Assembly (NCBI RefSeq): GCF_036172515.1
Contig: NZ_JAXKVW010000005.1
Coordinates: 1-64,000, forward strand
DNA from: Flexistipes sp.
Lineage (GTDB): Bacteria; Chrysiogenota; Deferribacteres; Deferribacterales; Flexistipitaceae
Direction of reading: 5' to 3'
Length of the DNA: 64,000 nt
The notes under the pieces are model-generated. The model made no database searches. It saw only the letters and a program-made list of their open reading frames with translations, and had not been told where the DNA came from. This document shows positions 50,884-53,712 of the stretch, piece after piece. Within the stretch, counting starts at the first letter, position 1. The number at the start of each line of letters is the position of its first letter. The position numbers and the translations under genes are program-made.

Positions 50884-51666
50884 ATGCGAATGGAAGTGGG
50901 CATTTTTGCAGGGGAATCTTTACTGTTAAATGAAGTTATTACTGCAATAGAGGGACAGATGCCTGAGGTTAGCATTAATGTTTATGCAGAAAAAGAGAAA
51001 ATGCCTGTTTTGCAGTCGGAAGTTCCTTCAGCTCAAATGGAAGAATTAAGTCAGTTTGGCGATGAAGATGTTCTCCTGGTTCTGCCAGGCGGTGACAGTC
51101 TGGCCGGCAATGCCGGTGATTTTGACGGCAGCGTTATTGATGCAGCAGGATACTATTCTGAGGATGTTGATATCTGTAAAGTTCTAAATCCGGTGGAGTA
51201 TATTCTTAACTCTGTGTGTGATGACATTGATGAAATTAAGGGCGTATGCAGTCTGCCTGCTGCTGTTTTCGGCAAAGACGGTGTTGATGATTTGATAAAC
51301 CAGACAAGACACCTTTTGGCTTTCTCAGACTATAACAGTAAGGTTATTGATTTTAATCTGGGTTTCAATGTTGCAACAGAAGGCAACACCCTTTTTGATA
51401 AATATTTGACAAATATAAAGGATGAAGTAAGAAAAAATTTTATTTTTAGGTTGCTACCTGTTTCAACAGGACTTATATTGGACATTTGTGGCAATACAGA
51501 AAATGTTGCAGGCGAAGATTTGTACGGGAAAACGGGGAACCTGGCAGATATTATAGCCAATGAAGGGTTGGTTTTCAGAAAAGAGAATAACGGTATGGTA
51601 ACCGTTTATGGTGACTATCTGCATATTTATACAAAGCAGATATTAGATGAGCTAAAAAAACTGTGA
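50884..51666 (+). CDS. Unknown protein, possible degenerate aspartate-semialdehyde dehydrogenase paralogue
   Basis: A 260-aa cytosolic protein I cannot name with confidence. The layout recalls the Asd/USG-1 family: an N-terminal Rossmann-like segment (MEVGIFAGESLLLNEVITAI), FDGSVIDAAGYYSEDVDI where Asd has a VIDNSSAFR block, and GKDGVDDLINQTRHLLAF where Asd has its EQTR helix, then FNLGFNVATEGNTLFDKYLT. The catalytic Cys (PNC) and the His of Asd are absent, and the protein is about 70 residues shorter, so it would not be active. AAAGGTG precedes the ATG. It is 17 nt upstream of the IscS-like gene and may belong to that unit. Confidence 0.5.
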   Translation: MRMEVGIFAGESLLLNEVITAIEGQMPEVSINVYAEKEKMPVLQSEVPSAQMEELSQFGDEDVLLVLPGGDSLAGNAGDFDGSVIDAAGYYSEDVDICKVLNPVEYILNSVCDDIDEIKGVCSLPAAVFGKDGVDDLINQTRHLLAFSDYNSKVIDFNLGFNVATEGNTLFDKYLTNIKDEVRKNFIFRLLPVSTGLILDICGNTENVAGEDLYGKTGNLADIIANEGLVFRKENNGMVTVYGDYLHIYTKQILDELKKL

Positions 51667-51683: not shown

Positions 51684-52865
51684 ATGGTCTATATGGATAA
51701 TGTTGCCGGAACGAAACCTGATAAACGAGTTATTGATAAGATGATCCCTTTTTATACGGAAAAATACGGAAATCCCAGTGCACATTTTTATCCTCTGGGC
51801 AGGGAAGCTTTTGAGGCAATTGATGAGGCAAGGGGATATGTGGCTGATCTTATAGGTGCTGAGAATGATGAGATTATTTTTACATCCTGCGGCACTGAGT
51901 CGAATAATCTTGCTTTAAAAGGTGTTTTGGGTACTGATAGAATAAAAGAAAAAAAACATATAGTTATAAGTGAAATAGAACATTTTTCCGTACAGAATGT
52001 ATGCATAAAATTAATGAACGAGGGCTATGATATTACAAAAGTAAAAGTTGATGAAAATGGAAAGATAGATATGAATGCTCTGGAGAAAGCTGTAACCCCC
52101 GAAACTGCACTTGTATCGGTTATGCATACTAACCCTGAGATTGGAACTGTTCAGGATTTAAGAAAAGTAGGTGAGATTTGCAGGAAAAATGAGGTTCTTT
52201 TTCATACCGATGCTGTTGCAGGAGTGGGTCATGCAGAGATTGATGTAAATGAATTCGGATGTGATCTGCTGAGTCTTGCAGGCCAGAATTTTTACGGTCC
52301 CAAAGGATCTGCAGCACTTTTTGTTAGAAACGGAGTGAAGATAAACCCTCTTTTTGACGGCGGGTTTCAGGAAAAAGGTATCCGCAGCGGCTCTGAAAAT
52401 GTACCGGCCATTGTAGGTCTGGGCGAAGCAGCACGCATTGCAAAGGAAGAAATGGGCGAATATGTACCCAGGATGAAAAAATTGCAGGAAAAGTTGTGGA
52501 ATGGCCTTGACGAAATGTTCGACTTCATACACTTTACTGGAGACAAGAACGATAGGTTACCCGGTCATGTCAGTTTTTGGATTGAATATATAGAAGGCGA
52601 ATCACTCCTTTTATGGTATTCGCTAAAAGATGTATACGGGGCAAGCGGTTCGGCATGTTCCTCAAATATCCAGGCTGAGGACGAGGATGAGCTGGAAGCC
52701 TCTCATGTGCTGACGGCAGTAGGTGTTCCCAATGATATTTGTGCCGGTTCACTTACATTTTCCATGTCAAAGTACAATACTGAGGATGAGGTGGACAGAG
52801 TTCTGGAGATAACACCGGAGATTGTTAATAAACTCTGTGAAATGTCACCATATTATAACAAATAG
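51684..52865 (+). CDS. IscS/NifS-family protein lacking the PLP lysine
   Basis: Class V aminotransferase-fold protein of 393 aa, full length for cysteine desulfurases. Retained: DNVAGTKPDKRV start, SCGTESNNLALKG, His100 in SEIEHFSV, Asp176 in FHTDA, GIRSGSENV, and the sulfur-carrying Cys325 in GASGSACSS. Changed: the SxHK loop reads SLAGQNFYGPKG, so the Schiff-base Lys is Asn202 and the His is Gln201; the Gln of the usual ATQ motif is Ala179. It should not bind PLP covalently. It lies 12 nt upstream of iscU, so it may be a scaffold partner or Cys-ligand donor instead of a desulfurase. AAGGAGAG precedes the ATG. Family placement is firm; activity is inferred absent. Confidence 0.92.
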   Translation: MVYMDNVAGTKPDKRVIDKMIPFYTEKYGNPSAHFYPLGREAFEAIDEARGYVADLIGAENDEIIFTSCGTESNNLALKGVLGTDRIKEKKHIVISEIEHFSVQNVCIKLMNEGYDITKVKVDENGKIDMNALEKAVTPETALVSVMHTNPEIGTVQDLRKVGEICRKNEVLFHTDAVAGVGHAEIDVNEFGCDLLSLAGQNFYGPKGSAALFVRNGVKINPLFDGGFQEKGIRSGSENVPAIVGLGEAARIAKEEMGEYVPRMKKLQEKLWNGLDEMFDFIHFTGDKNDRLPGHVSFWIEYIEGESLLLWYSLKDVYGASGSACSSNIQAEDEDELEASHVLTAVGVPNDICAGSLTFSMSKYNTEDEVDRVLEITPEIVNKLCEMSPYYNK

Positions 52866-52877
52866 CAGGAGGAAATT

Positions 52878-53327
52878 ATGGCAAAAGGACCATACAGTGA
52901 AAAAGTAATGGAACATTTTATGAATCCCAGGAATATGGGTGAAATCGAGGACGCCAGCGGAGTGGGTGAAGTAGGTAACCCTGCTTGCGGGGATGTTATG
53001 AAACTTTTTCTCAAAATCAATGACGATGGAGTTGTTGAGGATGTGAAATTTAAAACATTCGGCTGTGGTGCAGCGATTGCTTCGAGTTCTATGGCAACGG
53101 AGCTCCTGAAAGGGAAAACAGTGGAAGAAATTCTTGAGCTTACCAATAATGCTATTGTTGAGGCTCTTGAAGGTCTGCCGCCGGCAAAAATCCACTGTTC
53201 TGTAATGGCTGAGGAAGCTATTGAAGCTGCTCTTAAAGATTATTATGAGAGAGTGGGTAAAGATCCGAAAATTGTTGACGAAATAAAAGAAAAAATTAAA
53301 AATAAAGAGACAAATCAGGAGGTTTAA
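52878..53327 (+). CDS. iscU: Fe-S cluster scaffold protein IscU/NifU-N
   Basis: Scaffold on which 2Fe-2S clusters are built. The 149 aa have the three ligand cysteines in VGNPACGDVM, FKTFGCGAA and KIHCSVMAEEA, and the conserved PYSEKVMEHFMNPRNMGEI start. The C-terminus has an extra Lys/Glu-rich tail. It is preceded by AGGAGG and directly follows the IscS-like gene; nfu follows 6 nt later. This is a compact assembly set without iscA or hscBA. Confidence 0.95.
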   Translation: MAKGPYSEKVMEHFMNPRNMGEIEDASGVGEVGNPACGDVMKLFLKINDDGVVEDVKFKTFGCGAAIASSSMATELLKGKTVEEILELTNNAIVEALEGLPPAKIHCSVMAEEAIEAALKDYYERVGKDPKIVDEIKEKIKNKETNQEV

Positions 53328-53683: not shown

Positions 53684-53712
53684 AGAGAGACTTTTTAAGT
53701 CTCTCTTTTTTA
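53684..53712 (+). terminator. Terminator after the Fe-S assembly unit
   Basis: AGAGAGACTT (53684-53693) and AAGTCTCTCT (53697-53706) form a perfect 10-bp stem, followed by a run of T to 53711. It ends just eight bases before the next gene, so that gene needs its own start or readthrough. Confidence 0.85.

Follow-up and report, generated by a model that had tools for sequence, protein, structure and literature searches.

According to a recent paper, SMS is the only Fe-S assembly system that has no cysteine desulfurase (PMC11559095). SMS (SmsBC) is reported to use sulfide and to have no desulfurase of its own (PMC12192291), and MIS, the minimal ISC system of MisS and MisU, is described as having a cysteine desulfurase among its components (PMC11559095, PMC12192291). 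Two IscS proteins are already known to be without the catalytic lysine that binds pyridoxal phosphate (PLP). The IscS of Archaeoglobus fulgidus, which has Asp199 at this position, is reported to show no desulfurase activity and to supply a Cys ligand (PMC7585200), ligating the nascent cluster on IscU (PMC7585200, PMC9769115); its structures are available as PDB 4EB5, 4EB7 and 4HVK, and that of the D199K mutant as 4R5F. The second, IscS1 of M. acetivorans, has been proposed to function as the A. fulgidus protein does (PMC7585200).

Here we describe P0001, an IscS homologue without the PLP lysine that is encoded directly upstream of iscU in a 64,000-nucleotide stretch of Flexistipes sp. DNA, referred to as the window. 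The A. fulgidus IscS, named as the precedent in the initial annotation of this DNA, is indeed its closest functional precedent. As far as the searched literature shows, what is new is a lysine-less IscS fixed in a bacterial order nearly without SUF, the presence of such proteins in many phyla, the joint loss of the lysine and an arginine, and the association with TusA and DsrE. A literature search for Deferribacter together with cysteine desulfurase and IscU returned no match, most subscription papers lying outside the search and absence being unproven.

P0001, its operon and the Fe-S genes of the genome

The features of the locus are the following:

50884..51666, + strand: open reading frame of a 260-aa protein, upstream of the P0001 gene (17-nt gap)
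51684..52865, + strand: lysine-less IscS homologue P0001, 393 aa (open reading frame, NCBIfam NifS/IscS family, AF2 model)
51981..51983, + strand: His100 (E. coli His104), kept (alignment)
52218..52220, + strand: Ala179 in the Gln183 column (alignment)
52284..52286, + strand: Gln201 in the His205 column (alignment)
52287..52289, + strand: Asn202, codon AAT, in the column of the PLP lysine, E. coli Lys206 (alignment)
52656..52658, + strand: Cys325, equivalent of the persulfide-forming E. coli Cys328 (alignment)
52665..52685, + strand: acidic insertion of about 7 residues in the active-site Cys loop, predicted to be disordered (alignment, AF2)
52755..52757, + strand: Thr358 in the column of Arg354 (substrate carboxylate) (alignment)
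52878..53327, + strand: iscU scaffold gene (NifU_N, TIGR03419), sole NifU_N copy in the genome
53334..53555, + strand: nfu-like gene of a NifU C-terminal domain protein (PF01106, profile match)
53684..53706, + strand: terminator-like hairpin with a T tail, probably marking where the iscS-iscU-nfu unit ends (consensus match only)

P0001 was aligned by HMMER and MAFFT to E. coli IscS and to A. fulgidus IscS, the reference sequence of the latter being identical to that of PDB 4EB5. The initial annotation had placed Asn202 at the position of the PLP lysine, Gln201 in place of the preceding His and Ala179 in place of the PLP-contacting Gln, and had described Cys325, His100 and the neighbouring iscU as retained; the alignment and the gene map bear out each of these assignments. 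Thr358 and the acidic insertion, which were absent from that annotation, are added here. The insertion directly follows Cys325 and is restricted to the window's order and its sister family. In addition, Ala199 occupies the Ser203 column, and Asp176 (E. coli Asp180) and the equivalent of Thr76 are retained. The claim that P0001 has no Schiff-base lysine also held in the alignment: another lysine in this role was considered and rejected because nearby lysines, such as that of GPKG, vary to Arg in relatives.

P0001 belongs to the IscS/NifS fold family by descent. Its best NCBIfam score is 440.8 bits, to TIGR03402, whose cut-off is 530.75, and it falls under every equivalog cut-off. The AF2 model (pLDDT 91.2, pTM 0.90) is confident outside the Cys loop, where residues 326-335 have pLDDT < 50, and its TM to NFS1 and to the IscS proteins of E. 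coli and A. fulgidus is 0.91-0.97 (against 4EB5, 0.93 by query and 0.97 by target). Judged by its residues, P0001 lacks the Schiff-base lysine and the Arg354 equivalent expected of a desulfurase, and has the loop Cys. Family models place the lysine-less proteins among desulfurases, so that automatic annotation likely mislabels them.

With His100 and Asp176 kept, binding of PLP by P0001 may still be possible. A few PLP enzymes function without the lysine, and the protein could in principle be an active PLP enzyme of unusual mechanism, using another base or catalyzing another reaction; the retained His100, Asp176 and Thr76 equivalent would fit such an enzyme. E. coli IscS K206A likewise still binds some PLP, and the K206A, H104Q and Q183E variants are each without desulfurase activity (PMC9978102). 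We consider an active enzyme improbable, in view of the additional loss of the substrate Arg and of the Gln183, Ser203 and His205 equivalents, and of the exchange of nearby lysines for Arg in relatives.

The gaps along the upstream gene, iscS, iscU and nfu are 17, 12 and 6 nt, and these short distances together with the terminator-like hairpin at 53684 suggest that the four genes form one operon. The 260-aa upstream protein gave no match in a Pfam search and a weak NCBIfam match to aspartate-semialdehyde dehydrogenase (E 8.7e-4); at least 28 loci of the order have it at this position. No IscR-type Rrf2, IscA, HscA or HscB gene was found linked to the operon, nor was an A-type carrier (PF01521) found in the window genome.

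The initial annotation had proposed looking for a second, lysine-containing cysteine desulfurase in the genome, and two such homologues were found away from P0001, one adjoining an Rrf2 regulator and a cysE-like gene and the other adjoining thiI. Since IscS is dimeric and paralogues coexist in the genome, P0001 might be an inactive regulatory or heterodimer partner of a lysine-containing IscS in the same cell. This is rather remote: the paralogue is only 39% identical to P0001, the genes are unlinked, and iscU sits with the lysine-less gene.

The IscU of the operon is the sole NifU_N scaffold detected in the window genome, and across the 46 genomes of the order IscU is essentially single-copy, apart from a weak second match seen in some members of family f6. 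No SufB was found in the window genome or in 44 of the 46 genomes; in the order it is restricted to two members of family f4. SUF was therefore rejected as the cell's actual assembly system. One of the two SufB genomes (G005, locus L166) encodes the SufB-like protein next to an ABC ATPase, in an SMS-like arrangement. Taken together, the single IscU, its adjacency to P0001 and the missing SUF mean that in most of the order the only detected scaffold is encoded beside an IscS without the residues for desulfuration. As P0001 lacks the residues for taking sulfur from cysteine, this implies that the cells build Fe-S clusters with sulfur from elsewhere.

Conservation, spread and origin of the lysine-less form

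A survey for the same change, also proposed in the initial annotation, found the Gln-Asn pair without exception in the 39 gene-bearing members of the order that were examined. The class-level sister family, represented by two genomes, has Thr-Asn, so that Asn stands in the Lys206 column in 41 of 41 class members aligned. The dN/dS of the P0001 gene against its nearest congener is 0.057. A pseudogene or sequencing error can be dismissed as an explanation, given the full-length reading frame, this dN/dS and the residues shared by 39 members of the order. By profile count, the lysine-less gene has iscU and nfu nearby at 39 of the 40 loci from the order and its sister family. Genus g9 (family f3; two genomes, loci L160 and L161) pairs IscU with a lysine-containing IscS and an Rrf2 gene, an apparent replacement of the lysine-less IscS. 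Consequently, the lysine-less form is not indispensable for the IscU of the order.

The suggestion that P0001 is a bacterial counterpart of the A. fulgidus IscS stands as regards the functional precedent, but the case is not an isolated one, being order-wide and recurring in many other phyla. Scanning named genomes with an alignment of lysine-less proteins revealed loss of the lysine in Chloroflexota, Planctomycetota, Bacillota, Myxococcota, Nitrospirota, Aquificota, Aminicenantota, Acidobacteriota, Bathyarchaeota, Hydrothermarchaeota, Stahlbacteria, one actinobacterium and several unclassified lineages, that is, in more than 10 bacterial and archaeal phyla, nearly all of the genomes being MAGs. 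SufB is missing from 25 of the 35 genomes bearing lysine-less genes, many of which are incomplete MAGs. The Arg354 equivalent is gone in 94/94 lysine-less sequences scored and kept in 104/104 lysine-containing ones, some loci being counted twice; with the one exception, the Methanosarcina copy, the arginine is missing from 94 of 95 lysine-less proteins in total. The equivalents of the loop Cys, His104 and Asp180 are present in all 95 lysine-less proteins of the main survey, to which the Methanosarcina copy does not belong, and are invariant in the lysine group too.

The exceptional copy, at locus L204 of Methanosarcina sp. UBA5, stands in a row of genes for TusA, a DsrE-like protein, the lysine-less IscS and IscU; its Lys is replaced by Thr and His104 by Asp, and Arg354 is kept. 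The same genome has two lysine-containing IscS copies without TusA and DsrE. The most degenerate lysine-less IscS proteins are those of the Aquificota loci L092, L093 and L103, with Lys replaced by Leu and Thr76 by Ile. No iscU was found near these three loci, and the Aquificota genome G125 gave no further IscS match at the threshold used.

Trees were built with the active-site columns removed. The best trees contain a large lysine-less clade of 47 rows, which includes the window protein, and a small one of A. fulgidus and Bathyarchaeota, with the Methanosarcina copy apart, and in a reduced AU test a single lysine-less clade was not rejected (p 0.28). Because the best trees split the groups and the AU test leaves one origin possible, the aligned sequences indicate that the lysine was lost one to three times. 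Thus, the likeness of P0001 to A. fulgidus IscS extends to the residue losses but not to the branch in the best tree, with single origin not rejected. Direct descent of P0001 from the A. fulgidus protein was considered and is unsupported by the best tree, the AU result allowing one origin.

Sulfur carriers and the proposed role of P0001

Neighbours were counted by profile, on the same strand and within 4 kb, for 36 lysine-less genes outside the order and 77 lysine-containing genes. TusA is found at 25/36 lysine-less loci against 1/77 lysine loci and DsrE at 11/36 against 1/77; in both lysine cases with TusA or DsrE, the carrier is shared with a lysine-less gene of the same locus. The Fisher value for TusA is 1.8e-15, which overstates significance because the sequences are related. 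Identities of TusA and DsrE were confirmed by Pfam on samples, and the TusA pattern spans many phyla and all three lysine-less groups of the tree. The components of canonical ISC loci show the opposite tendency: Rrf2 occurs at 4/36 lysine-less against 30/77 lysine loci, and IscA, HscB and HscA at none of the 36 against 17, 14 and 16 of the 77, respectively. IscU is near 24/36 lysine-less and 50/77 lysine genes.

At five loci (L080, L081, L083, L088, L112) the fetched stretch has tusA 12-180 nt behind the lysine-less iscS but no iscU, so that TusA looks like the closer partner there. The TusA-like neighbours at L083, L100 and L108 are without the CPxP motif (YPMP, CPMH and CPIH, respectively), the Cys itself being gone at L083.

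We consider it probable that P0001 is a non-desulfurase IscS that serves as a structural and chemical partner of IscU, with sulfur coming from sulfide, a carrier or a lysine-containing desulfurase. This reading builds on features seen directly: conserved residue losses, the arrangement of the genes, one scaffold only and no SUF. P0001 would be catalytically retired, the PLP desulfurase reaction no longer being run, and would keep the IscS dimer fold and dock IscU. Cys325, on its enlarged flexible loop, would be presented at the IscU site, where it could act as a ligand of the nascent [2Fe-2S] cluster, the role reported for the A. fulgidus protein, or hold and pass on sulfur made elsewhere. The sulfur would be inorganic sulfide, or persulfide delivered by a carrier or by one of the lysine-containing desulfurases of the genome.

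Two forms of this explanation differ in the source of sulfur, and we hold each of them only tentatively. P0001 might be a sulfur relay hub, in which a TusA/DsrE-type carrier, a rhodanese or a lysine-containing IscS in trans loads the Cys, from which sulfur passes to IscU. The excess of TusA and DsrE near lysine-less genes points this way, as do the missing IscA, HscA and HscB, some loci with tusA only 12-44 nt behind the lysine-less gene and no iscU, and the Methanosarcina genome, where the lysine-less copy alone has both carriers. On E. coli IscS, TusA and IscU occupy different sites but compete for binding (PMC11302665), and a carrier could accordingly dock on a lysine-less IscS and act in reverse, although transfer in this direction, opposite to that from E. 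coli IscS to TusA, is conjectural. Against the relay stand the loss of CPxP in some of the linked TusA proteins and the situation in the order itself: none of the 40 lysine-less loci in the order and its sister family has TusA or DsrE nearby (profile, same strand, 4 kb), and the evidence for a relay is consequently not directly transferable to the window. TusA or DsrE as a partner of P0001 in the window organism was searched for and is not linked; the two TusA genes of its genome sit with selD-like and yeeE-like genes.

It is no less conceivable that free sulfide feeds the cluster and that Cys325 only ligates iron. Such a sulfide-fed arrangement has its precedent in the A. fulgidus IscS-IscU pair (PMC7585200), agrees with the unlinked carriers in this order, and draws on work with anaerobic E. 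coli without IscS, in which IscU can be supplied by sulfide (PMC13015791). It accounts less readily for the lysine-containing desulfurases that the genome retains and for the ties to persulfide carriers in other lysine-less lineages. External sulfide, the source named in the initial annotation, thus stands as a candidate but not as the only one, the TusA and DsrE ties in other lineages pointing to a persulfide relay. In the window organism the donor could equally be sulfide or a persulfide source acting in trans. On a broader scale, and as a speculation that we would not yet put above even chances, the lysine-less IscS proteins of more than 10 phyla may be a large, hitherto overlooked class that constitutes a separate Fe-S assembly system, a persulfide-receiving hub fed by TusA/DsrE or sulfide and not by cysteine, which in the window's order serves the sole general Fe-S scaffold of the cell.

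The order thus relies on one IscU beside a partner without desulfurase residues, in contrast to the rule that a desulfurase is part of the assembly system (PMC11559095). Whether Fe-S sulfur derives from cysteine or from an inorganic source thereby becomes open to direct test in bacteria, and the case may show which parts of IscS, such as IscU docking and the loop Cys, are required independently of catalysis. A concrete carrier hypothesis comes from the link to TusA and DsrE.

Comparison with known systems

The scaffold proteins of SMS are unrelated to that of the P0001 operon. MIS resembles the operon in being a minimal iscS-iscU system without HscA, HscB and IscA, but the operon has no active desulfurase component, as judged by residues only. 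Canonical IscS, NifS and NFS1 share with P0001 the fold, the iscU neighbour, the persulfide Cys, His104 and Asp180, and differ in Lys, His205, Gln183, Ser203 and Arg354, all of which P0001 has lost; the operon also differs from canonical ISC in being without IscR-type Rrf2, IscA, HscA and HscB. The Methanosarcina sp. UBA5 protein of L204, presumably the counterpart of IscS1, is like P0001 lysine-less and sits with iscU, but keeps Arg354, is without His104 and is preceded by TusA and DsrE.

The A. fulgidus IscS differs from P0001 in having Asn-Asp where P0001 has Gln-Asn, in having no acidic insertion in the Cys loop, and in belonging to the other lysine-less branch, with Bathyarchaeota, in the best tree (AU p 0.28). 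Its likeness to P0001 covers the replaced lysine (Asp199), the lost equivalents of Gln183 and Arg354 (Ala and Leu), the retained Cys loop, the pairing with IscU (PDB 4EB5, PMC7585200) and the fold (TM 0.91-0.97).
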